Shown one piece after another: positions 1 to 12,431 of a DNA stretch of 64,000 bases (the stretch's first letter is position 1; each line of letters opens with the position of its first letter). A program made the position numbers and the translations under genes. Location: positions 2,428,001 to 2,492,000 of the forward strand of contig NZ_CP045067.1 of NCBI RefSeq assembly GCF_016864015.1, written 5' to 3'. This stretch comes from Lacinutrix sp. WUR7. Lineage in GTDB: Bacteria > Bacteroidota > Bacteroidia > Flavobacteriales > Flavobacteriaceae. The notes under the pieces are model-generated. The model searched no databases. It had not been told where the DNA came from and was given only the letters and a program-made list of their open reading frames with translations.

Positions 1-489
1 TCGTATTCCAATATTATGAAAACCAACATCTAATGTGCCTAATGGAATTGCAAAGTTTTGTGAAGTTTCACTAGGGCTTCCAGATATAGTTAACGGATTT
101 CCATTTCCTTGTCCAGGATCTGTATTAAACCAATATTCAGCTCCAGCTATATTTGAAATAGGATCGCTTGTATTAATTTCTTCTGAAACATAAAAAGTAA
201 CATTTTGATATAATCCCCAAGTACCAAGATTATCTTGTGCTCTAACGGTTAGCTTATGAAAGCCTTCATTTAAACTAGTTATTGGTAAATTTAAAGCTTG
301 TGTAAGTTCGCCAGTATTTGCGTTTGCAGTTACCAAAGTACCATTACCTAATCCAGGATCTGTACCAAAATAATATTCTAATTGTTGAATGTTTTGCGAC
401 GTTACTGTAGCAAAACTACAAAAGAATAGTAGTATAAATCCGAATAGATAATTTTTTGGCAAGCGCATGTTTTTTTGTTGCGCTTTCAT
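1..489 (-). CDS. Secreted repeat protein of unknown function, 3' end beyond the window
   Basis: An open frame runs from an ATG at 489 to the left edge without a stop (163 codons visible), so the gene is truncated by the window. The N-terminus has a basic stretch, a hydrophobic core and a small-residue end (about residues 10-31), a typical Sec signal peptide. After it a unit recurs: EYYFGTDPGLGNG near residue 38 and EYWFNTDPGQGNG near residue 118, each followed by a stretch ending in GFHKL or GFHNI, which looks like an 80-residue beta-sandwich repeat. The start lies two bases after the stop codon of the beta-helix gene (TAA-TT-ATG), so the two are almost certainly co-transcribed and translationally coupled. 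I cannot name the function. A C-terminal sorting domain may lie outside the window. Confidence 0.8.
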   Translation of the reverse strand, partial: MKAQQKNMRLPKNYLFGFILLFFCSFATVTSQNIQQLEYYFGTDPGLGNGTLVTANANTGELTQALNLPITSLNEGFHKLTVRAQDNLGTWGLYQNVTFYVSEEINTSDPISNIAGAEYWFNTDPGQGNGNPLTISGSPSETSQNFAIPLGTLDVGFHNIGIR

Positions 490-491
490 AA

Positions 492-1607
492 TTAATGCGC
501 TTTTGCGTTAATTGTTACATTAATATTACCGTTTTTTGGTACAGCTCCATCATAACTAATTACGTCTAGCGTAGGGATTCCTTTTGGATTACCAATAGTA
601 TTATATAAAAAACCATTGTTGTATAGGCCCATTTCAGAACCACCACCTCCACCAGTAAGTGCAGGAGATCCAGCTTGTAAGGTTAGATCTTCTTCTAAAC
701 GTATGGTTGGATTATACGCACCCGTTCCTGCAAGGCTAGTACTGACTGTACTATCTACATTTGTAAATAAAGGATCTGTGTTTGCTAATGTATTAGATTC
801 TAAATGTGTGCCTCCACTAACATTTGCAAATACAGTATTAAACGTATCAGCGTAATTATAAATTAGATTATTAGATAGGTTAAAATCACCGCTTCTAAAA
901 TTGATAACAGATTCACCTCCATAATTACTAATAAACATGTTGTTATATAAAATAGCGGTACCAGAAGGATTATTATTTCTAAAAGTAAGACTGCTCTGAA
1001 ATCTAAATACATTATTTGCAATAACAGAACTGGTTGTATTGTAAATATATAATGGCGTGGGAGAATCAAATATATTGTTAGAGAAAAGTACATTGGTAGC
1101 ATCTTCATATATATAATTGACGCTTTTTAAAATGCAACCTCTTACTTTTACATCATCAATAGAAACAATTGGTGCTGCTTGACCTTCTCCAAGTTGTAAA
1201 GAGCTAACATTACATTCGTAAACAGTTAAACCTACAAAAGGAGGTGCTACTAGAGCACCAGAACTTTGAGGATATAATGAAGAAAGTTTTAAGCCTTTTA
1301 AAGTCACATTTGATGAGCGAATAATAACTCCATCTAATAGTGATATTTTAGAAGGTTCGCTATGAGAACGACCAACTATAGTTAATTCTTTATCTATGGT
1401 AACAGCACCGTAGGATGTGCCAGAAGGTTGCACATAAATAATATCTCCAGCTGAAGCAGCATCATGTGCAGCTTGAATAGTTTGGTGTGTGGTTGTCGAA
1501 CCAGAATTATTATCAATAGTGATAATGGTTTGTGCTAGAAAATTTGTTGAGGCAAGCATAAAGCATGCCATTAGGACATTTTTGAATGTTTTTGTAAATG
1601 TTTTCAT
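492..1607 (-). CDS. Secreted right-handed parallel beta-helix protein
   Basis: This 371-residue protein has a signal peptide (about residues 1-25, ending FLAQ). An opening segment (TIQAAHDAASAGDIIYVQPS) is characteristic of pectin-lyase-fold proteins in which an extended strand precedes the helix. Short repeating segments rich in N and S (for example VLFSNNIFDS, SVIANNVF, AILYNNMFI, LSNNLIYNY) are beta-helix coils with asparagine ladders. No catalytic motif of a polysaccharide lyase or hydrolase is evident, so binding or structure is as likely as enzymatic activity. Unlike several neighbours it has no recognisable T9SS sorting domain; it ends VTINAKAH. It lies directly upstream of and coupled to the partial repeat-protein gene. 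A 26-base palindrome and a -7-like box lie about 70 and 35 bases upstream. Confidence 0.8.
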   Translation of the reverse strand: MKTFTKTFKNVLMACFMLASTNFLAQTIITIDNNSGSTTTHQTIQAAHDAASAGDIIYVQPSGTSYGAVTIDKELTIVGRSHSEPSKISLLDGVIIRSSNVTLKGLKLSSLYPQSSGALVAPPFVGLTVYECNVSSLQLGEGQAAPIVSIDDVKVRGCILKSVNYIYEDATNVLFSNNIFDSPTPLYIYNTTSSVIANNVFRFQSSLTFRNNNPSGTAILYNNMFISNYGGESVINFRSGDFNLSNNLIYNYADTFNTVFANVSGGTHLESNTLANTDPLFTNVDSTVSTSLAGTGAYNPTIRLEEDLTLQAGSPALTGGGGGSEMGLYNNGFLYNTIGNPKGIPTLDVISYDGAVPKNGNINVTINAKAH

Positions 1608-1639
1608 AATATAAAATATTTGTTGATTAATAGTATTAG

Positions 1640-1690
1640 CAAAGTAGGAAAGGGTGCAATACGAAAAAATCCCCAGTACTGGGGATTTTT
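1640..1690 (-). promoter_or_regulatory. Site A: palindrome plus -7 box upstream of the beta-helix gene
   Basis: A perfect 26-base palindrome spans 1665-1690 with core ATCCCCAGTACTGGGGAT at 1669-1686 (centre 1677.5). On the minus strand a TACTTTG sequence (1646-1640), one base short of the TAnnTTTG -7 consensus, starts 31.5 bases from the centre. The start codon follows 33 bases later. Spacing and half-sites match site B exactly. The palindrome followed by T-runs could equally terminate the upstream LRR gene (stop at 1738), so a dual role is possible. Confidence 0.5.
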
Positions 1691-1737
1691 GATAATTAGA
1701 GATAAAAAGAATTTTCCCTAGTAACTAATTAGTCAAA

Positions 1738-3846
1738 TTATTTTTTTAGGATACGTTTGGCTATAGAACCGTTTTCAGTATCTAGTTTTAAAATATAAAT
1801 ACCAGTTGGTAAGTGTGCAATGTTTAGAAAGTGTGTATTACTTTCAAATTCTTTTTGCAATACTTTTTTGCCTAAAATATTATATAGTGTGGCACTTGTT
1901 TTAGAAGTATTATTTAAAGTAATATGTAATAATGAATTTGTTGGATTAGGGTAAACCTGGATAGCTTGTAAATCATTTTCTGCAATACCTAACAAACTAA
2001 CATTAACAGTTATCGGTGCTCTATGAATTTCAATTCCTGGTGTATCTGGATTTGTAATTACGCAATGGTAACTTCCACTATCGCTAGGTTGTGCATTAGT
2101 TATGGTATATGTATTTGCAATTGCGCCACTAATAGCAACGTCATCTTTTAGCCATTGGTAATTATTTCCAGCCATTTGTCTTCCTGAGGCTGTCCTTGTT
2201 GAAGCTACATCTGTTAAAGTAAGTGTTATATCATCTCCAGCATCTGAAGTAATTTCATCAGGTACATCTAATGTGTATTGAGGTGAAAAAACGAAATTGG
2301 TAATATTTGCTTGATAGGTTGCAATCTCATCTGCTACATCAGCAAATGTAAAATAATTACGATGCATTTGAAGCGTTTCTAAAGGTAATGCTGTTAAATC
2401 TGGAAAATCACCATTATAAGCACTACTACTCCAATTAGAATCAATTCCTATTGCACCTATTAAGTATAATTCGCGCAGGTTTGTTAAGTTTTGAAAGGAT
2501 TGTGGAATATTTCCAGTAAGCCCATTTTGGTTTAACCAAAGCACTTCTAGGTTTGCAAGGTTTCCTATTTCTGGTGGAATAGATCCTGAAAATGTATTTG
2601 GTGCTAAATCCAATTCTATTAAGTTAGAAAGGTTGCCAATTTCTGAAGGAATATTACCTGTAATTTCATTTGACCATAGCAATAAGGTTTGCAGTTCGGA
2701 AAAGTCACCAATTTCTGTAGGTAAAACACCAGTAAGATTATTAGACCCTAAACTAATACTTGTTACCCTGTTATTCGTTAATGTAACTCCATGCCATGTA
2801 CTTAAGGGTTTGGTATCATCTAGCCAATTGGTGTTTGTTATCCAACTATCTCCATTAGTGCTATTGTATAATGCAACTAATGCGCTGTAGTCTTGGTTGT
2901 CTGAAGGAGCTTCACCAACTGTAAAGTTAACACTTTGTAAAGTTAAACCTGTAACAATATTGTTAGTAGCTTGGTAGGTGTAAGTTCCATAGTCTGCACT
3001 AGAATTTACTGTAACATTTAATGTTGTATTCATTTCACCAATTAATAATACACCATCTTTATACCATTGGTAATTGTTTTGTGTACCAGATGTGTTGGCC
3101 GTTAAAGTTGTAGAATTACCAATAGCAACTGCTATTTCAAATGGTTGGTCTATATATTTTTGAGGTGAAAATAAATTACTAGGAATAAATTGATTATTAG
3201 CAAAAGTGTTTTCAAAATCACCGAATTCAAAATTATTACTTTCATACCAAAAAAAGTTTAAACTAGTGATACCTGAAAAATCTGGAATACTTCCTGTTAA
3301 TTGGTTGTTAGAAATTAGAAAAACATATAAATTAGAAAGATTGGTGATTGTTGTAGGAATATTTCCAGTAAGATAATTATTTCTTAAATCTATCCAGGTA
3401 AGATTAGGTAATGATCCTATTTCACTTGGTATATTTCCAGAAAGTTGCCAACCTCTTAAATCTAAATAATTTAGATTAGTTAAATTTTGAATTTCTGCAG
3501 GAAATGTAGCAGGTGCATAATAATTGGGATTTAAATACAAGTCAAGCCTTGTTAATTCGGATAAAGTAGTTAGTGATAAAGGGAAACCGTTACTAACAAC
3601 AATATTGTTGTCTGGCAAGTTAATTTGTGTAACATGGTCTTGACCATTTATGTTGGTTACGGTTATTCCTTGCCATGTAGATACTGGGGTTTCAGTATTC
3701 CAATTGGTGTTTGTTGTCCAAAGCGTTTCTCCATTGCTCTCCGTAAAAAATTGAATAAGCGCATTGCGTTCACTTAGGGGAACTTGAGCGAATATATATA
3801 TCGTACTAATAAAGATGAAAATAAAAGAAAGTAGTAATCGTTTCAT
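1738..3846 (-). CDS. T9SS-exported LRR / Ig-like surface protein
   Basis: The 702-residue product has a signal peptide (residues 1-20, ending IFAQ). Its architecture repeats twice: an N-terminal FTESNGE.W..NTNW segment and plant-type leucine-rich repeats of the form LxGNIPxEIGNLxNLxxLxL, then an Ig-like domain (NYQWYKDG...YTYQATN near 240-312; NYQWLKDD...YHCVITN near 540-615). The last 75 residues are a T9SS type A sorting domain: VYPNPTNSLLHI, then GIYILKLDTENGSIAKRILKK. After T9SS export the tail is expected to be removed and the protein released or attached to the cell surface. LRR and Ig-like domains suggest binding of protein or glycan. It has its own upstream operator/promoter-like region and lies between the two-component operon and the beta-helix gene. 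Confidence 0.88.
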   Translation of the reverse strand: MKRLLLSFIFIFISTIYIFAQVPLSERNALIQFFTESNGETLWTTNTNWNTETPVSTWQGITVTNINGQDHVTQINLPDNNIVVSNGFPLSLTTLSELTRLDLYLNPNYYAPATFPAEIQNLTNLNYLDLRGWQLSGNIPSEIGSLPNLTWIDLRNNYLTGNIPTTITNLSNLYVFLISNNQLTGSIPDFSGITSLNFFWYESNNFEFGDFENTFANNQFIPSNLFSPQKYIDQPFEIAVAIGNSTTLTANTSGTQNNYQWYKDGVLLIGEMNTTLNVTVNSSADYGTYTYQATNNIVTGLTLQSVNFTVGEAPSDNQDYSALVALYNSTNGDSWITNTNWLDDTKPLSTWHGVTLTNNRVTSISLGSNNLTGVLPTEIGDFSELQTLLLWSNEITGNIPSEIGNLSNLIELDLAPNTFSGSIPPEIGNLANLEVLWLNQNGLTGNIPQSFQNLTNLRELYLIGAIGIDSNWSSSAYNGDFPDLTALPLETLQMHRNYFTFADVADEIATYQANITNFVFSPQYTLDVPDEITSDAGDDITLTLTDVASTRTASGRQMAGNNYQWLKDDVAISGAIANTYTITNAQPSDSGSYHCVITNPDTPGIEIHRAPITVNVSLLGIAENDLQAIQVYPNPTNSLLHITLNNTSKTSATLYNILGKKVLQKEFESNTHFLNIAHLPTGIYILKLDTENGSIAKRILKK

Positions 3847-3876
3847 AATGGTTGGTTTTAGAAGTTAATAGCAATT

Positions 3877-3927
3877 CAAACATATAAAATAATGTAAGGC
3901 AATAAAATCCCCATCATTGGGTATTTT
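3877..3927 (-). promoter_or_regulatory. Site B: inverted repeat plus TAnnTTTG box upstream of the LRR gene
   Basis: The inverted repeat ATCCCCATCATTGGGTAT spans 3907-3924 (centre 3915.5). A perfect minus-strand -7 consensus TATGTTTG spans 3884-3877 and starts 31.5 bases from the centre, the same geometry as site A. The start codon is at 3846, giving a predicted leader of about 25 bases. An activator bound there would sit near -45. The right half overlaps the region of the response-regulator stop codon (3926-3928). A weak hairpin plus short T-run means it might also end that operon's transcript. Confidence 0.55.
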
Positions 3928-4549
3928 AAAATTTATACTTCTTCTCTAAAGCATAACGCAAAAGCTCTCCTTTTCCGTGAAGTCCAAGAATGCGGATCAT
4001 GTTTTTTCTATGTGTATCTACCGTATGAATACCAATAAATAAGTCTTCGGCAATCTCTCGTGAGGTTTTACCTTGCGCAACGAGTTGTAATATTTCAATT
4101 TGACGTTTGGTTAAGAGCCCTTTTTTAGTGTTGCTTTTATCTGTGCCAAGTGCATTGGTATCTATACTTTTGTCAAAGTATGTTTCTCCTTTGTACACTG
4201 TTTTAATTGCTTGTAAGACTTCTGTTAAGGAAGAGTTCTTTAATATATAGCCTTTTGCTCCAGCTTCTAGCATTTGCTCTATGGCATCCAATTGATCAAA
4301 CATAGAAAAGGCTAAAACCTTTGTGGTTGGGAATTCTTGCATGATCGCTTTGGTAGCAGCAATGCCATCTAATTTGGGCATGCGTATATCTGTAATAATA
4401 ACGTTTGGTTGTTTTAATCGTACAATTTCCAATAATTGCTCTCCATCATTTGCAGTGCCAATTATAGAAATGCCTTCTTCATATTTTAAGAGTAATTGTA
4501 ATCCGTCAATTAAGGATTGATGATCTTCTGCTATGGCTAATCGTATCAT
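3926..4549 (-). CDS. NarL/LuxR-family response regulator
   Basis: The 207-residue protein has a receiver domain (1-120) with acidic pair E8-D9, phospho-acceptor D54 in ITDIRMPKLDG and the conserved lysine in GYILKNSS. A LuxR-type helix-turn-helix follows (about 140-207: LTKRQIEILQLVAQGKTSREIAEDL, IHTVDTHRKNM). I place the start at ATG 4549. An in-frame TTG at 4570 would add seven residues not seen in the family, and the receiver fold begins directly at MIRLAIAEDH. It is the last gene of the operon lipoprotein / kinase / kinase / regulator and follows the second kinase by 70 bases. Phosphotransfer from one or both kinases is inferred from gene order. The nearby inverted repeats are candidate targets. 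Confidence 0.9.
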   Translation of the reverse strand: MIRLAIAEDHQSLIDGLQLLLKYEEGISIIGTANDGEQLLEIVRLKQPNVIITDIRMPKLDGIAATKAIMQEFPTTKVLAFSMFDQLDAIEQMLEAGAKGYILKNSSLTEVLQAIKTVYKGETYFDKSIDTNALGTDKSNTKKGLLTKRQIEILQLVAQGKTSREIAEDLFIGIHTVDTHRKNMIRILGLHGKGELLRYALEKKYKF

Positions 4550-4619
4550 TTTGTATGTTTTTAAATTCAAAAATCAAGCATATATTCTTTACGTTTTTTA
4601 CTGAAAATGTTCTGTATTC

Positions 4620-6536
4620 TTAAATAGGAATGTCTATAATTATGGTGGTTCCTTGGTCTTTTTTAGACTCAATAATCATTTGGCCCTCTAAATGCTCTAC
4701 CCGTTTATCAATACTATCTATTCCCATTCCGGAAGCTTGTTTTAAGTTTTTGGTGTTAAAACCAATACCATTATCTTCTACAATAATATTTAGACCTTCT
4801 TCATGATTTGTTAAATGTACAATGCCTTTTGTTGCATGCGCATGTTTAATAATATTAGTTATGAGCTCTTGAATGATTCGGAATATGGAAATTTCTAAAG
4901 AGTTTTCTAGGCGATTTTTTAATCCAAAACTATGGACTTCAAAAGTAAGCCCATTAATTCCGGAGGCATTTATAGAGAGTTTTTCTATTGCGGGAAGTAA
5001 GCCGTTTTTAGCCATTACTCCAGAGCTTTTTAAATGTGCCATAGATCTAATCTCTACATAGGCATCTTCTAGTAAAGTGCTGGTTTTTTTTATTAATTCT
5101 TCGGAAGCTTTAAGGTCTGTTTGGTTTTTTATGAGATATTCAAATTGCATTTTAGCGGCAGACAATGTTGCACCAACACTATCATGTAAATCGGAAGCTA
5201 ATTTTTGACGTTCTTTTTCTTGACCTCTAATCATCGCATCAATAGTAGATAACTCTAAGTCTTTAAGTATTTTTTCTTTTTCTTCTATTTGTTCTTGACG
5301 TTCTTTTTCAGCTTTAAGTTGTTTTCGTTTGGAGTTTTTGAATATTAAAAAAGCGAATAGAGAGACTATAGAAAAACTGCTTCCCCAAGCTAAAGTGAGG
5401 TTTGTTTTTTCTTTGTTTTTTAGCTGAATTTCTGTTTGATGGTATAATTCATTTTGCAATTGTTTTTGAAAATGCATTAAACTATCCGTTTTTCTAAAAT
5501 TATCAATTTGCATTTTTTGCAATGCTCTAGTATTCGCTTTGTCTTCTGCTTCATTTCTATATTCTCTACCTTTTTCATAATGATAAAAAGTGGAATCAAA
5601 ATTCTTTTTACCTCTATATCCTTCAAATAAAAAGTAATGAGCGCCTCGTATTTTAGTCTTATTAGGTATTTTTTCTGCATAAAAAAGACTTTTTTTAGCG
5701 ATTTTTATAAGGCTGTCATGTTTTTTTTGTTTAAAATAGTTTTGAGCCATGGTACTATAGCCATGTGCGAGAATACTGTAATTATTTAATAAATGTCCGA
5801 TTCTAATAGCTTCATTGGTTTTCTTTTTTGCTAGTTTATAATCTTTTTTAATAATGTAAGACTGTCCAATGTTGACATGGTTTACGGCTCTGTTTTTTAA
5901 ATCCTTTTTTAAGGAACAGAGTTTTAAACTTTCATTAAAATACGCTAATGCTTTGTCTGCCTTAAACCGTATGTTATATATATTACCAATATTTGTTAGA
6001 TTAGAAATAATGGTGAGCGTGTCTTTTCTGCTTTTGCTTATGGTTAGGCTTTGTTCATAAAAAAATAATGCTTCATCCAAATTCCAGCTGGTCTTATGCA
6101 TTTTTCCAATATTATCTAGAGCTTTTGCTTCTCCTTTTTTATTACCTAGTTTCTTGTATAATTTTAAACTTTTTTCATAACTATTAGTTGCGGAAGGATA
6201 ATCCCCTAAGATGTGATTTATATGCCCTAATGTGATTAAAGCTTTAGCTTGCTGAGGTTCTATCTTATTAGCTTCGGTAAATTTTATAAGCTGGTCTATA
6301 AGAATATAAGCGCTATCTGTTTTATTATCTAAATACTTTTTAGAAATTAATATGTTAAATGCTATTGCTCTTGTAGAATCTGGTTTTTTTGAGTTTTCCC
6401 AGATAGCATACAGTGTATCTTTAGAAGTTTGACCAAATGAAGGATGTATGAATATTAATAACCATATAATTGGTAATGATCGTTTTACTCTCTCCTTAAA
6501 AAAAGGGTTTTTTTTAGATTGGATTGGCATGTTCAT
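4620..6536 (-). CDS. TPR-containing sensor histidine kinase (HisKA_3 type), copy 1
   Basis: The 638-residue membrane kinase has an N-terminal hydrophobic signal sequence (about 20-36). A periplasmic region of tetratricopeptide repeats follows (about 45-340; for example AKALDNIGKMHKTSWNLDEA). Then come a transmembrane helix near 382-400, a coiled-coil linker, and a HisKA_3 dimerisation domain with phospho-accepting His in LASDLHDSVGATLSA. The ATPase domain (about 535-638) has the N box IIQELITNIIKHAHAT and G box VEDNGIGFN. The start ATG overlaps the stop of the preceding kinase gene (ATGA), showing translational coupling. The TPR region probably senses a protein or peptide in the periplasm. 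It is a clear paralogue of the preceding gene, with near-identical catalytic blocks but a diverged sensor part. Confidence 0.9.
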   Translation of the reverse strand: MNMPIQSKKNPFFKERVKRSLPIIWLLIFIHPSFGQTSKDTLYAIWENSKKPDSTRAIAFNILISKKYLDNKTDSAYILIDQLIKFTEANKIEPQQAKALITLGHINHILGDYPSATNSYEKSLKLYKKLGNKKGEAKALDNIGKMHKTSWNLDEALFFYEQSLTISKSRKDTLTIISNLTNIGNIYNIRFKADKALAYFNESLKLCSLKKDLKNRAVNHVNIGQSYIIKKDYKLAKKKTNEAIRIGHLLNNYSILAHGYSTMAQNYFKQKKHDSLIKIAKKSLFYAEKIPNKTKIRGAHYFLFEGYRGKKNFDSTFYHYEKGREYRNEAEDKANTRALQKMQIDNFRKTDSLMHFQKQLQNELYHQTEIQLKNKEKTNLTLAWGSSFSIVSLFAFLIFKNSKRKQLKAEKERQEQIEEKEKILKDLELSTIDAMIRGQEKERQKLASDLHDSVGATLSAAKMQFEYLIKNQTDLKASEELIKKTSTLLEDAYVEIRSMAHLKSSGVMAKNGLLPAIEKLSINASGINGLTFEVHSFGLKNRLENSLEISIFRIIQELITNIIKHAHATKGIVHLTNHEEGLNIIVEDNGIGFNTKNLKQASGMGIDSIDKRVEHLEGQMIIESKKDQGTTIIIDIPI

Positions 6537-8374
6537 ATCGGTAAATCTATTATTATCGTTGTGCCTTGGTTAATTTCAGACTCGATAGTCATTTTTCCGT
6601 CCAAATACTCTACACGTTTATCAATACTATGAATTCCCATCCCTTTTTTAGAAATGATTTTGGTATCAAAACCAACACCATTATCTTCTATCATAATATT
6701 TAGGCTGTCCTCATGATTTGTTAAACTAATGGTTGCTTGTGTTGCTTGCGCATGTTTAATAATATTAGTGGTTAGTTCTTGAATGATTCTAAAAATAGTA
6801 AGTTCTAAACTGTTTTCTAATCTGTTTTCTAAACCATGATCTACCACATCTATTTGCGTTTTATTTAATGCTGAAATTTTGTTAGCCATTTCCTTTACGG
6901 CTTTTAATAAACCTTGTTTAGCAATTACTCCAGAATTTTTAGCGTGTGCAATACTTCTAATTTTCTGATAAGCTTCGTCTAAAAGGGTATTGGTTTTTTC
7001 GAAAAGGTCTTCCGATTTGTTTTCCTTTAAAACATTAAAATGAAGTTTTACAGTAGCCATGAGTCCGCCAAGATCATCATGCAAATCGTTAGCAATACGT
7101 TGTCTTTCTTTTTCTTGCCCTTCAATCATAGCATCAATACTAGTCAGTTCCTGTTCTTTAAGTACCGCAGCTAGTTTTTGGGTTTGTATTTCTTGTTCTT
7201 GTTCGGCAAGTAGTTGTTTACGTTTGGTGTTTTTCTGAATTAAGAATGCAGAAAATCCACCAAAAACTAAAAGGAATAAAGAGGCAATAAGCAAGTTTTG
7301 ATTTTGTTTTCTTTTTACTTCGCTTTCTAGATTATCTGCCCGAAGTTTTTGGTTGTCATATTGTTCTTTAATATTGGCTATAGCTTCACGATGTTCTTTG
7401 GTATTTAGGCTGTCCGAAAGTTCAAGGGATAATTTTAGACTATTATATGCACTATGGTATTTTTTTTGTTTGGCAAATAAATCCGATAGATTTTCATTAA
7501 TTTTTTTGCTATTCTTAAGGATGTTTTCTCGCGTAGAAACGCTATCCGCTTTTAGATAAAACTTTTCAGCTTCATCTAGTTTGTTTAATCTTTCATAGGA
7601 AACACCAATGTTAAAATACGTATTAAAATAACTTTCTTTTGAAGTATGACTTGGTGCCTTTTTAAAGAAGTCTAATTTCTTATTAAAATAATAAATAGCA
7701 GAATCTGATTGTAATAAATTATCTTCAAATAAAGCGCCTAAATTATTATAGGTATAAAGTAAATATGCGCTATCTCTTTTTTTATAGTTATAGCCTAAAA
7801 GCATTTTATAATTACGTAATGCTTCATTATTTTCATCTCTATAATAATAGTAGGTTGCTAGTAAAAAACGATGAATTATTTTATAAGTTGCTTGGTTGTA
7901 CTCTTTCGCTTTTTGCGCTAAAATATTTAAATATTCTAGGTTATAATAGTTGTCATTATTATAATCATAAGTTTGACTAAGCGCTGCAAGGCTAGACAGT
8001 GTGGTTAAAGTGTCTTGTGCTTTTTTTGCTAGTTGAAGTGTTTGATAGCTTTTTTTGAAAAATAAAGAATCATTACTTGTTATTTTATTATAAAAACCCT
8101 CAAAATATAAGACTCTGCATTGTTGAAACTTCGTTAGGTTTTTGTCTTGTTCGAGCTGGTTTATATAGAAAGACATAGAATCACTATCTCTTAAGCGGCT
8201 ATGGTATATTAATTTATAAAATTTGGTATCCGTGGGTTTTTTAGAATTTTTAAATTTTGATTCTAATAGTGCAATAGGTGTGGTATTATCAAAATAAAAA
8301 TAGGCAGAGTCATTTTGTGCTATACAAATAGTACAACAAAAAATGCAGAGTATTTTTATAAATGATGCTCTCAT
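6533..8374 (-). CDS. TPR-containing sensor histidine kinase (HisKA_3 type), copy 2
   Basis: The 613-residue product has a signal peptide (MRASFIKILCIFCC, ending CIAQ) and TPR-like helices across about 30-335. A transmembrane helix lies near 361-380. HisKA_3 has the phospho-acceptor in IANDLHDDLGGLMATV, and the HATPase domain has IIQELTTNIIKHAQAT and IEDNGVGFD. I start at ATG 8374. The in-frame TTG at 8401 would overlap the upstream lipoprotein gene and precede the signal peptide with polar residues. The gene starts four bases after the lipoprotein stop and overlaps the next kinase by four bases. Two kinases with different sensor domains beside one regulator suggests either two inputs to one output or a heterodimer. 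Confidence 0.9.
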   Translation of the reverse strand: MRASFIKILCIFCCTICIAQNDSAYFYFDNTTPIALLESKFKNSKKPTDTKFYKLIYHSRLRDSDSMSFYINQLEQDKNLTKFQQCRVLYFEGFYNKITSNDSLFFKKSYQTLQLAKKAQDTLTTLSSLAALSQTYDYNNDNYYNLEYLNILAQKAKEYNQATYKIIHRFLLATYYYYRDENNEALRNYKMLLGYNYKKRDSAYLLYTYNNLGALFEDNLLQSDSAIYYFNKKLDFFKKAPSHTSKESYFNTYFNIGVSYERLNKLDEAEKFYLKADSVSTRENILKNSKKINENLSDLFAKQKKYHSAYNSLKLSLELSDSLNTKEHREAIANIKEQYDNQKLRADNLESEVKRKQNQNLLIASLFLLVFGGFSAFLIQKNTKRKQLLAEQEQEIQTQKLAAVLKEQELTSIDAMIEGQEKERQRIANDLHDDLGGLMATVKLHFNVLKENKSEDLFEKTNTLLDEAYQKIRSIAHAKNSGVIAKQGLLKAVKEMANKISALNKTQIDVVDHGLENRLENSLELTIFRIIQELTTNIIKHAQATQATISLTNHEDSLNIMIEDNGVGFDTKIISKKGMGIHSIDKRVEYLDGKMTIESEINQGTTIIIDLPI

Positions 8375-8378
8375 AAAA

Positions 8379-8822
8379 TTATTCCAAAATTTTACATCCA
8401 AGAGCTATTGGTGATCCTTTTATAACTGTTTTTTTCTTTCTTTTTGTAATGTTATTTTCGTTGCAGTCAAAATTTTCAAACACGACTTTAATGGTTAATT
8501 CTGAGCCAGGTATTTGAGAGAAACTGCCTTTGTTAAACTTTTCAAATTTGGGTTTTGTAAAATCTCCACGACCAGTGATTTCATAAGTTACCGTATTATC
8601 TTTATTGCTAACTTCGGTTAATGTAGTTCCATTTGGATATGGTATTATGTATTTAGCTGTTCCATCTTTGGTGTTATAATCATAGCCTTGATTTAAAATA
8701 GCACAAGGATTCTTACATAAATCAAAAGCATAGTCTTCTTGCTTGATATTGTTGTCTTTGCAGTTTATTAAAAAAATGAAAAAACATAATATGCTCACCG
8801 ATTTTAAATTTAAAATTTCCAT
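8379..8822 (-). CDS. Small lipoprotein, first gene of the two-component operon
   Basis: The 147-residue protein has a hydrophobic N-terminal segment ending in FLINCKD, a lipobox-like sequence (cysteine near 21), so export and lipidation are likely. The mature part is polar, contains a CKNPC pair and a further cysteine in FDCNEN, and ends LGCKILE. I recognise no family. As first gene of the operon, four bases before a sensor kinase whose TPR domain faces the periplasm, it may be an accessory sensor or ligand of the kinases. That role is inferred from position only. Confidence 0.7.
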   Translation of the reverse strand: MEILNLKSVSILCFFIFLINCKDNNIKQEDYAFDLCKNPCAILNQGYDYNTKDGTAKYIIPYPNGTTLTEVSNKDNTVTYEITGRGDFTKPKFEKFNKGSFSQIPGSELTIKVVFENFDCNENNITKRKKKTVIKGSPIALGCKILE

Positions 8823-8857
8823 TGTTTACGTTTTCGTTAGGTTATTGGTAAATCTCT

Positions 8858-8896
8858 CAAAAATAGAGGTGTAAAAACATACCCGTTATTAGGTAT
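8858..8896 (-). promoter_or_regulatory. Site C: inverted repeat plus TAnnTTTG box upstream of the signalling operon
   Basis: The inverted repeat ATACCCGTTATTAGGTAT spans 8879-8896 (centre 8887.5). A perfect minus-strand -7 consensus TATTTTTG spans 8865-8858, starting 22.5 bases from the centre, nine bases closer than at sites A and B. The lipoprotein start codon is at 8822, giving a leader of about 30 bases. Position in front of the operon that encodes the regulator suggests autoregulation. Its stem is too imperfect to be a good terminator. Confidence 0.5.
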
Positions 8897-9003
8897 TTTA
8901 AAAAGTTAAGCATTATTTTTTTAGAACGAAAAAAATGGAGGCAAAAGCCTTTTTTAATAGATTAAGAGTCGTATTCTTTATATATAATTTCTTGAAATAA
9001 TAA

Positions 9004-9023
9004 ATCCCCAAAAAAATGGGGAT
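9004..9023 (-). terminator. Probable terminator of the M36 protease gene
   Basis: The inverted repeat ATCCCC-A-6 bases-T-GGGGAT lies 25-44 bases after the protease stop codon (9048). It resembles sites A-C in its half-sites but has a six-base instead of four-base centre, and no promoter-like box sits at the matching distance. I therefore favour a hairpin terminator. The T-run after it is weak. Confidence 0.45.
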
Positions 9024-9047
9024 TTATGTCTGAAATAAAAACGGTTT

Positions 9048-12000
9048 TTAATGTTTTATGAAACGTTTTATTACTGTTTTATTTTCTACTTGAAACTGGA
9101 TTATATACAAGCCTTCCGAAAAATGAGAAACATCTATTTTGTTTGAAGGTTTCTTGATATGTAGTATTTGTTTTCCTAATAAATCGAAAACTCCTATAGT
9201 ATCCAACGTTAATTCGGTACTAATATTTAAAGTAGCCGTTGTGGGAATTGGATAAATAGTTATTTGTTTTTCTATTTCGTTAAACGTTTCCACGGATAAC
9301 TGTACATCAATAACTTCTACATTTACTTCAAAGGTTTCTTGATGTCCAGAACTGTCGGTAACACTAAGTAAAACAGGGTAATTACCTACTGCTGTAAAGG
9401 TGTCCAGATTTATGCTTAGCGTAAAATCACAATTGTCTGCAGAGCCATTATCAATATCATTTGCAGTAATGCTCACAGAACTATTTCCTTCTAAATTTAC
9501 AGTGATGTCTTGCGCAATAGCAGTTGGATTTAAATTATCAATAACATGTACTATGGCTACCCCAGAAGTGGATGCTCCAGCATTGTTTGATACTAATACA
9601 TCTACATTATTTACACCTAAATCTAAACAGCTAAAACTAATAGTAGATGCTAATGGGTTTCCACCAGTAAAAGCAACGGTACCGCAATCTATAGAATTGC
9701 TAAATAACAAATCTTCCGCATTTATAGTCGCGTTTCCAGAAGCATCTAGAAACACATCAAGTGGCGTAGCTAGCACTTCATAGTCAAATGTTATTCCCCA
9801 GGAATTTAATGTGCCTACATCTTGAGAAACGCTATCGGATATAAAAATTTCCCAGATTCCAGAGGTGTTTTCACCATCAAATATGGATAATGGATTTTCC
9901 GGAATAAACAAACCGTTTATAGTTGGTTCAGAGTCATCACATGCTGTTTCTACATGGTTAACCGCTTCATCATCAAAAGTGGCTAGGATATTATTTCCAA
10001 GACATCCATAAGTCGATGCAGGTACTCCTGGACGATCTATTAATGTAGCCGTCGTTCCGCCTGGTGATTTTATAGTTACTATAAGATCTCCCACATACGT
10101 GTGAGAAATATCGATATTTACATTAAGGTCTGTAATAATTACATTGTTTGCTACGGTAAAAGTGTCGGTTATACCAGCTATATCACCATCGGGAATACTA
10201 AGTGCTGGACTATTAGATAGCGATTCGGTAAGTGGGATAAGTCCAGATCCTCTTATTATTAATTCAGGTGGATTATTCGTAACATTTATTTGTTCCGTAT
10301 TTGTAGTTGGTGCTCCAGTACAATAATCATTAACATAATAATTTACAGATGTCATACCAACTCCGGTAGCATTTGGGTCAAACGAATACGTCAAGCCATC
10401 GCCAGTATCTGTTACACCTGTTCCGCTATAAACACCTCCAGTTGGTAGTCCTCCGGAAAGACCTGTTTGTATGCCAGAAGCCATGCAAATTTCTTCAACA
10501 GACTTAAAGCTAGAATAGTTTGTAGGTAAATCAAAAGCCTCTGTTCCATCACTTCTGCTAGAAGATAATCCTTGGGTTGCACTAAAGCCTAAACCTCTTT
10601 TAGCGAATGCTTCCCATATTAAACATTGGTAAGCGCCACCATATAAAGTTTGATCTGCCGCTAAAATGGCATCACGACCATCTATAAATCCGGGGCTACA
10701 AGGTTGTAATATTAAGCCTTGTGTAACTAAATTTAACGCAATATTATTTCCACTTGTTCCGGTATAAAAATTAGCATCAAAACCTTGGTCTTCTATTAAA
10801 CTCCAAGTCATATCCCATAACATGGCTGTCCAAACAGAGCCTATACCATGAGGAATAACTTCTGTTTTGATATCGTCATAAGTATGTGGATTCGTTGTTA
10901 ATAAAGTACTATAAGGGTACGTTCTAATTCCTGAACTGCCAGCAGATCCTCCTAGTAACCATGTTCCTATAGGTCTGGAATCTTCACCAGTATCTCCAGG
11001 TTTCATTGTTAAAAGCAAGCCATAGAAATCACTCCAGCCTTCTCCCATTTGTTCTGTGTTTGCAAGACATCCTACTAAAGAACCTCCAGTTAACCGATTG
11101 GAAATACCATGTCCGTATTCATGAATGATTACTCCATTATCTATATCACTATCTCTAGAATTGCAAACATGCATACGCATGGTAGGATTCGTACCGTCTA
11201 CAGGTGTCGAGAAAAACGCATTACAGCTCGAACTTCCATCTTGTGCTTGGGCATTTACGGAGTCTCCTCCTAATCCTGCATTACCATAATTATTTTCTTG
11301 AAAATTACCAGCTGCTTCATCAAAACCATATTCATAAAGTACATCATGTACAATGTTATTCCAATAAAACAAATTGGTAAGGATTGCATTTTCAGATTGA
11401 TCTCCAGCCGAATAAGTCGTATTTAGAGGAAAGTCGAAAATTAAATTCCCTCCAGGACTATATGCATATTTGTCATCTGGTAAATTGTTAGCATCATCAT
11501 CGTCATAGGCGCTTACATTATTTCCAACAGTAGATGTAAATTCAGCTCCTTCAACACCATTTGTATCGTGCCATCCAAATGGAGAAGCAGATACATTTTC
11601 GGGGTTTGTCACAAGTGTTCTGGTTCCATAATTTGGCGATTCCGTAGGCATAGCATACACGTTGTAAGTCGCAGTAGGTGCAAATGGTATGGGTGTGGAA
11701 TAATTATTTAAACTAGAATGAATCTCTTTAATAGGGCCAATAAAATCAGCATGATTTATAGTAGAACTGCTAGTTGTGTGTTCTTTATGATCTCCTAAAA
11801 TATTACAAGATGTTGTTAAGTTATCTTTATCTATAATAATTCCTGATGCAGCATCTACGCGAAAAACCCACCAATCGGATGATTCTTTTTCAGCAATAGA
11901 AAGTTCCCAAACCATAGTTGTACCAATATCTTTTTGTAAGTAATACATTAACTTAACGGGAATGTTTTTCAAAGAAATTCCGGCTTTATTATAAATGGCT

Positions 12001-12431
12001 TTTTTATTTATTCCTCCTAAACTTTCAATAGTTTCTAATTTGTCTAAAGAATAATGCATTTGATTGGCAACTGAAGTAATTACTTGACTCGCATTAAGAG
12101 CTACCGTTTTATTAAGGACAGTAGATGGAATATTTTCTATAAAATTATTATGCAATATTATGACTGTTCCAGACGCGTCAAAATGAATGCTGGATTCTGT
12201 TCCTTTTACTTCAATACCATCTATAGCTTGTCTTAAATATATATGTCTGATACCCGTTTTTTTACTAACATATTCGTTAGTTATAACATAATTATTGCTT
12301 TTCTGCGTAATTAATGTTTCTAAAGAAATTGAAGATTTTTCAATGGAAATTTTTTGATTTGGCTTTTGTTGAGCAAGGAGTACATTCGTCACCATACAGA
12401 TGATTACGAAGAATCGTGTAGTGTTTTTCAT
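9048..12431 (-). CDS. Secreted M36 (fungalysin-type) metalloprotease with P-domain and T9SS tail
   Basis: This 1127-residue exported protease carries, in order: a signal peptide (1-20); an FTP/PepSY-like inhibitory propeptide (about 30-200); and an M36 catalytic domain with zinc motif HEYGH (H437, E438, H441) and the downstream glutamate in EQMGEGWSDF. A proprotein-convertase P-domain follows (about 740-885: IPDGDIAGITDTF, SHTYVGDLIVTIKSPGG). Then come a region with repeated beta-sandwich features and a T9SS type A sorting domain (last 75 residues: IYPIPTTATLNIS, GLYIIQFQVENKTVIKRFIKH). It likely degrades extracellular protein as a nutrient source, with the propeptide cleaved on activation. 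It has its own promoter-like region and terminator, so it appears monocistronic. Confidence 0.93.
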   Translation of the reverse strand: MKNTTRFFVIICMVTNVLLAQQKPNQKISIEKSSISLETLITQKSNNYVITNEYVSKKTGIRHIYLRQAIDGIEVKGTESSIHFDASGTVIILHNNFIENIPSTVLNKTVALNASQVITSVANQMHYSLDKLETIESLGGINKKAIYNKAGISLKNIPVKLMYYLQKDIGTTMVWELSIAEKESSDWWVFRVDAASGIIIDKDNLTTSCNILGDHKEHTTSSSTINHADFIGPIKEIHSSLNNYSTPIPFAPTATYNVYAMPTESPNYGTRTLVTNPENVSASPFGWHDTNGVEGAEFTSTVGNNVSAYDDDDANNLPDDKYAYSPGGNLIFDFPLNTTYSAGDQSENAILTNLFYWNNIVHDVLYEYGFDEAAGNFQENNYGNAGLGGDSVNAQAQDGSSSCNAFFSTPVDGTNPTMRMHVCNSRDSDIDNGVIIHEYGHGISNRLTGGSLVGCLANTEQMGEGWSDFYGLLLTMKPGDTGEDSRPIGTWLLGGSAGSSGIRTYPYSTLLTTNPHTYDDIKTEVIPHGIGSVWTAMLWDMTWSLIEDQGFDANFYTGTSGNNIALNLVTQGLILQPCSPGFIDGRDAILAADQTLYGGAYQCLIWEAFAKRGLGFSATQGLSSSRSDGTEAFDLPTNYSSFKSVEEICMASGIQTGLSGGLPTGGVYSGTGVTDTGDGLTYSFDPNATGVGMTSVNYYVNDYCTGAPTTNTEQINVTNNPPELIIRGSGLIPLTESLSNSPALSIPDGDIAGITDTFTVANNVIITDLNVNIDISHTYVGDLIVTIKSPGGTTATLIDRPGVPASTYGCLGNNILATFDDEAVNHVETACDDSEPTINGLFIPENPLSIFDGENTSGIWEIFISDSVSQDVGTLNSWGITFDYEVLATPLDVFLDASGNATINAEDLLFSNSIDCGTVAFTGGNPLASTISFSCLDLGVNNVDVLVSNNAGASTSGVAIVHVIDNLNPTAIAQDITVNLEGNSSVSITANDIDNGSADNCDFTLSINLDTFTAVGNYPVLLSVTDSSGHQETFEVNVEVIDVQLSVETFNEIEKQITIYPIPTTATLNISTELTLDTIGVFDLLGKQILHIKKPSNKIDVSHFSEGLYIIQFQVENKTVIKRFIKH

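Follow-up and report, generated by a model that had tools for sequence, protein, structure and literature searches.

Predicted operator dyads at a fixed distance from −7 boxes join a NarL-type two-component operon to adjacent secreted-protein genes in Lacinutrix sp. WUR7 and its relatives

In a 64,000-nucleotide stretch of the Lacinutrix sp. WUR7 genome (contig NZ_CP045067.1, positions 2,428,001 to 2,492,000; hereafter the window), an operon for two sensor kinases and a NarL-type response regulator shares an 18-base inverted repeat, or dyad, with the secreted-protein genes that follow it. Judging from the sequence, we consider it likely, with a probability of about 85 %, that the regulator encoded in the operon uses these dyads as operators and would activate from them both the operon and the adjacent secreted cargo. 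The dyads, the boxes next to them and one related hairpin are the following, scored with a position weight matrix (PWM) of the family:

8879 to 8896, minus strand: site C, operator-like dyad 5' of the two-component operon; PWM score 41.4; present in all four congeners with sequence there
8858 to 8865, minus strand: box TATTTTTG, 22.5 bp from the centre of site C, the box named in a preliminary description of this DNA; TATGTTTG in congeners G002 and G003
8849 to 8856, minus strand: box GAGATTTA, 31.5 bp from site C, the family offset
3907 to 3924, minus strand: site B, operator-like dyad 5' of the leucine-rich repeat (LRR) gene; PWM score 34.9
3877 to 3884, minus strand: box TATGTTTG, 31.5 bp from the centre of site B
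1669 to 1686, minus strand: site A, operator-like dyad 5' of the beta-helix gene, which may also terminate the LRR transcript; PWM score 31.3
1639 to 1646, minus strand: box TACTTTGC, 31.5 bp from site A (TACTTTG at 1640-1646)
Genome 2425452 to 2425469 (L001:17452-17469): site E, 18 bp, outside the window, 2.5 kb to its left; PWM score 28.9
9000 to 9028, minus-strand fold: hairpin D (ATAAATCCCC-loop-GGGGATTTAT), 20 bp 3' of the M36 gene

Sites A, B and C were found letter for letter where the preliminary description had placed them, and their common pattern ATNCCCR-N4-TNGGKAT occurs in the window at these three places only (five strand matches), compared with no occurrence in 100 dinucleotide shuffles. 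The three repeats are genuine and exceed what chance would give. The genome scan proposed along with them returned two further places in 3.99 Mb; as this pattern was derived from A, B and C themselves, the fair test is the dyad count in the family given below. A search for AATCCCC-N2..10-GGGGATT found three places genome-wide, all in this region, namely A, D and E (genome 2425451). Site E shares the 18-bp geometry and has about 60 bp of 3' sequence in common with A, whereas the longer spacer of hairpin D puts it outside the dyad class. The geometry is compatible with the approximately 7-2-7 inverted repeats of NarL/FixJ regulators, and binding by the regulator is predicted.

The family set comprised 80 contigs with a total of 1.25 Mb, carrying regulators 63–95 % identical, L046 among them being G002. 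The dyad ATACCY-N6-RGGTAT has 102 exact matches in these contigs versus 0–5 for 29 other arrangements of the half-site letters, and 157 matches with at most one mismatch versus 5–36 for the 29 permuted arrangements; 144 of the 157 are intergenic. An intergenic site lies 5' of the operon in 67 of the 73 loci whose upstream DNA exceeds 5 kb (57 of them exact), and one lies at or behind the regulator end in 55 of the 79 loci with downstream DNA. With the candidate operator in the operon's own promoter in these 67 loci and in all four congeners, the operon is predicted to be autoregulated. Among the six loci counted as having no intergenic operon site, L051 and L066 show PWM matches 5' of the operon (33.8 and 27.2), L085 has an exact site and L103 a one-mismatch site, each within a called reading frame, and nothing was found 5' of the operon in L116 and L119. 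Conservation of the half-sites carries no proof, as they were the selection criterion; the flanks of the operon sites are on average only 37–44 % identical, so that recent kinship does not explain the result. The PWM itself has 48 columns, the box included, and was built on the 144 intergenic sites, one of which comes from the genus. After C, B, A and E the next best score in 389.5 kb of own DNA was 15.5, this background including the pattern-match stretches L003-L007 and excluding L152. As to orientation, 168 of 179 intergenic PWM matches point the same way as the operon.

Among 142 family sites selected independently of the −7 box, 120 have.A..TTT[AG] at precisely 31.5 bp from the centre of the dyad, while other offsets have a mean of 0.81 and a maximum of 5; the stricter.A..TTTG is found at 31.5 bp in 54/71, 25/48 and 11/23 sites of three classes, with no other offset exceeding 2. 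A further count of 146/168 boxes at this distance is partly circular, since those hits were picked by the box-containing PWM. The rule is common to operon and target sites, and the distance from dyad to start codon, which was no selection criterion, has class medians of 67.5, 64.0 and 75.5 bp. The boxes and distances noted earlier (31.5 bp at A and B, 22.5 bp at C, and the start codons) are correct. In the 80 contigs, too, the repeat accompanies both the operon of the regulator and neighbouring surface-protein genes with a constant spacing to the −7 box, as had been proposed. At C, a box does exist at 22.5 bp, but this is probably not the relevant spacing, since the second box GAGATTTA stands at the family offset. 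We do not favour 22.5 bp as the functional spacing, though it may apply in this genus, TA-type boxes occurring there at 3 operon sites versus 54/71 for.A..TTTG at 31.5 bp.

According to the available parts of PMC9723704, the flavobacterial −7 box covers −12 to −5, which would place the dyad centre near −43.5. This is a NarL-like activator position: NarL activates at ogt from a single site at −44.5, as far as the accessible text of PMC7419079 describes it, and activators that work from one promoter-proximal site, between about −41 and −45, would be expected to show a fixed operator-to-box distance. The position supports activation by analogy only. In the proposed circuit, a TPR sensor kinase would, judging by its domains, sense a signal and phosphorylate the regulator, a dimer of which would occupy ATACCY-N6-RGGTAT or the variant ATCCCC-N6-GGGGAT, as the family-wide association suggests, and may activate beside RNA polymerase from this position. 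Via site C the regulator would boost its own operon, and via B, A and E it would turn on the neighbouring genes for secreted proteins, some of them exported by the type IX route. In other species, this module would precede different cargo.

On the minus strand, the elements follow each other in the order M36, C, lipoprotein-like gene, HK2, HK1, regulator, B, LRR-Ig gene, A, beta-helix-like gene, 988-amino-acid (aa) repeat gene and E. Beyond E lies a convergent gene for a 676-aa protein, presumably an M49-like peptidase. The genes are:

9048 to 12431, minus strand: M36 metallopeptidase with type IX tail, upstream of site C
8379 to 8822, minus strand: operon gene 1, lipoprotein-like, 147 aa; no Pfam family
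6533 to 8374, minus strand: HK2, TPR sensor kinase (Pfam HisKA_3, HATPase_c)
4620 to 6536, minus strand: HK1, TPR sensor kinase (Pfam HisKA_3, HATPase_c); no separate copy in G002
3926 to 4549, minus strand: NarL-type response regulator, 207 aa (Pfam Response_reg, GerE)
1738 to 3846, minus strand: LRR-Ig protein with type IX sorting tail (Pfam)
492 to 1607, minus strand: secreted protein of 371 aa, beta-helix-like; weak NosD-like match, none to Pfam
1 to 489, minus strand: start of the 988-aa repeat protein with C-terminal sorting-like tail, extending left past the window edge, followed by site E

The regulator combines a receiver domain bearing the phospho-acceptor Asp with a C-terminal GerE domain, which assigns it to the NarL/FixJ class, and its D54 and K104 are invariant in 13 aligned orthologues. 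The tandem kinases (4620-8374) are about 51 % identical across the kinase part and also occur in tandem in G004; all 73 other loci with enough DNA, G002 included, have a single kinase copy. Operon gene 1 is present in 4 of 99 searched genomes, the own genome included, all within the genus.

Comparing the upstream regions across relatives, as had been suggested, bore out the arrangement. Site C stands 65.5 bp from the ATG in all four congeners, its half-sites being kept while the centre varies, and an A-type site precedes the beta-helix gene in the own genome, G004 and G002, the three in which E is kept as well. The LRR protein between regulator and beta-helix gene differs in G002 (41 % identity), and G004 has no LRR there. 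In G002 and G003, the contig of the latter stopping just past HK2, the M36 gene is absent and a divergent gene lies upstream of C. G005 lacks the whole 15.7-kb island of M36, operon, LRR, beta-helix and repeat protein genes, and the flanking genes, pyrophosphohydrolase-like and M49-like, adjoin within about 0.5 kb. At this empty site the best PWM score is 10.5 in 18 kb (L178 = G005:C11:18001-36000), and no regulator relative was found in G005 at E 1e-70 among the 31 of 39 candidates scored. Operon, cargo and sites are thus jointly absent in G005.

Outside the locus, the own genome contains one comparably scoring match at 1364069 (L152:1501-1518) with a PWM score of 32.7 and the box TAGTTTAG, lying 113.5 bp 5' of a 138-aa frame; the gene behind this frame starts like that of an exported protein. 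Because of this site, the circuit probably extends beyond the locus. In the preliminary idea of a self-contained autoregulated circuit, autoregulation is suggested by the site positions, and self-containment was too strong, given the unlinked site. Site E lay outside the window. In 12 genomes with the regulator (E 1e-70 or better), exact dyads outnumber the reversed pattern by 37 to 10; G003 was left out of this comparison since its contig breaks at the locus. Dyad and regulator are strongly associated close to the regulator and weakly on the scale of whole genomes, and related regulators may use similar sites.

Several observations weigh against our interpretation. The 80 loci are related, several of them within one genus, and 4 of the 80 have no PWM match of at least 22. 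In 86 genomes without the regulator, exact dyads number 92 versus 57 for the reversed pattern, hardly above the control yet not absent. Among 28 exact sites unlinked to the locus (26 from genomes in which the regulator passes the threshold, plus stretches of G003 and of other members of the genus), 13 score at least 22, 8 score 9–22 and 7 score below 9. At the locus itself, the 22.5-bp box of site C (TATTTTTG) matches better than its 31.5-bp box, and the box of site A is one base off the consensus.

It is improbable that another protein binds the dyad, for example a small LuxR-type protein among the targets, or that the bound regulator represses. The small LuxR-like proteins do form the largest target family (10/73), and the one member scanned carries GerE; however, no such gene occurs among the frames of at least 110 aa beside the sites in the genus, where the response regulator is present, and the 31.5-bp rule is alike at operon and target sites. 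Repression would gain if the real box of C were the one at 22.5 bp, as the dyad would then overlap the −33 region. Less probable still is that the repeats are mere intrinsic terminators of the upstream genes, alike because of duplicated 3' ends. Strong hairpins at A and D (−14.1 and −15.6 kcal/mol), the 11-bp stem and T run of A and the 3' sequence shared by A and E speak for it, and D is probably the terminator of the M36 gene. B and C, on the other hand, fold weakly (−7.8 and −5.5 kcal/mol), and termination does not need a 31.5-bp lock to a −7 box. A same-strand gene upstream of 97/98 target sites favours the explanation; an upstream neighbour on the opposite strand at 50/69 operon sites speaks against it. 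The divergent neighbour in G002 and G003 means that C terminates nothing there, so that terminators only, which had been named as the outcome that would overturn the preliminary description, fails for C. The terminator-only explanation, which D and E had made worth serious consideration, does not hold for C or for the operon sites.

A terminator would be expected to combine a same-strand gene upstream, a strong hairpin and a T run; C and these 50 operon sites lack the combination, and target sites of the C4/G4 form show it. This form accounts for 28/98 target-side sites and 0/69 operon sites, and the own locus behaves alike (A and E of this form, C not, B mixed). The 28 sites have a mean fold energy of −13.85 kcal/mol and a T run of at least 4 in 22 cases, while the other 70 have a mean of −7.65 and a T run in 23. 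T runs are accordingly commoner at target sites (45/98) than at operon sites (14/69). Mean fold energies of operon and target sites are similar with the C4/G4 sites included (−8.84 versus −9.42, p 0.50); with them left out, they are −8.85 for the operon and −7.21 and −8.15 for targets. Restricted to sites behind a same-strand gene, C4/G4 dyads number 0/19 for operons versus 28/97 for targets (p 0.006), which speaks against terminators only and rather fits a ranking of operators. Such a ranking and a double role can both hold. For A- and E-type sites, we see slightly less than an even chance that they serve as DNA operator for the next gene and as RNA terminator for the previous one: C4/G4 sites combine the terminator-like features with 31.5-bp boxes in 21/28 cases (hits chosen by the box-containing PWM), but a dual role is unnecessary for operon sites and the 70 remaining target sites are not of this form.

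Site E might also be nothing but a terminator for the convergent genes around it, a view weakened by the box TAAATTTA at 31.5 bp and by a 25-codon frame behind it. This hydrophobic frame (L001:17323-17400, minus strand) starts 60.5 bp behind E and occurs in the own genome, G004 and G002. Its substitutions fall on third positions in 4/5 cases between own genome and G004, 8/13 between own genome and G002 and 8/12 between G004 and G002, a tiny sample.

The genes behind the target-side sites are diverse and mostly of exported type. By a crude rule, 45/56 target-side genes have export-like starts versus 301/733 other genes of the loci, and Pfam found among the 56 targets type IX tails (11), Ig_2 (6), LRR_14 (5) and DUF5723 (4). 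Some targets depart from this trend and are not exported, namely a small LuxR-like family (10/73), an Lgt-like protein and short proteins of Aquimarina. The 73 targets fall into 33 families, and the 43 genes directly next to the regulator into 21; the slot between regulator and convergent M49-like gene measures 75–7087 bp in 33 loci. Of seven beta-helix homologues outside the genus, five have a PWM match of at least 33 no more than 271 bp upstream; of the other two, one scores 12.9 and the last lacks a match. The small LuxR-like proteins of about 130 aa, seen for instance in L055, L058, L068, L072, L081, L082, L083 and L092, are perhaps a second regulator in the circuit. The Aquimarina targets (L108:8718-9053, L113:8721-9056 and L115:13703-14020) encode 105–111 aa without an export signal and give the impression of modified-peptide precursors with a leader. 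We tentatively suggest, with somewhat more doubt than for the dual role, a conserved chassis of TPR kinase, NarL-type regulator and 31.5-bp operator-promoter with an exchangeable slot for secreted cargo, which would be unrelated from species to species yet always preceded by this operator, and in which C4/G4 dyads would end the previous cargo transcript and start the next. If this were true, each cargo unit would be insulated and exchangeable.

Several known systems resemble parts of this arrangement, and the nearest, NarXL, FimS/FimR and LiaSR/VraSR, all remain below the model cut-offs. NarL/NarX of Escherichia coli likewise has a REC-GerE regulator, 7-2-7 inverted repeats and, in the available parts of PMC7419079, a single site just 5' of a promoter; it differs in governing nitrate respiration through an unlinked regulon, and the regulator described here reaches 98.8 bits against the NarL cut-off of 250. 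FimS of Porphyromonas gingivalis is a sensor kinase with periplasmic TPR motifs (available text of PMC11053733), and FimR is an activator of surface-protein genes that binds to the mfa1 promoter and to the first gene of the fim cluster (available text of PMC1974823). HK1 aligns to the FimS model over residues 25-599 but scores 54.7 bits versus a cut-off of 600, below equivalog level. FimS/FimR governs fimbriae, whereas type IX-secreted and other cargo is found here, and none of the seven proteins scanned belongs to a fimbrial Pfam family; the accessible portions of PMC1974823 and PMC11053733 report no fixed operator of this kind. VraR is the best solved-structure relative of the regulator, and the LiaS model matches the kinases, with 85.9 and 78.6 bits against a cut-off of 450. 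LiaSR/VraSR systems, which serve cell-envelope stress in Firmicutes, are autoregulated, and their kinases, to our knowledge, have no TPR sensor part. As far as we know, PorXY-type regulators lack a DNA-binding domain of their own. PorXY-SigP links two-component control to type IX export by means of an extracytoplasmic function (ECF) sigma factor acting on the secretion machinery (available text of PMC4800418), whereas here a GerE regulator stands beside the cargo and the boxes are of the housekeeping TAnnTTTG type. No paper describing the operator dyad was found among open-licence publications.

The dyad provides an exact family-wide prediction of site, spacing, start site and targets for what would be a switch of surface and type IX proteins in Flavobacteriaceae and some other Bacteroidota. 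It may also illustrate how a conserved control module goes together with secreted cargo that changes rapidly, and one DNA element is here perhaps both operator and terminator.

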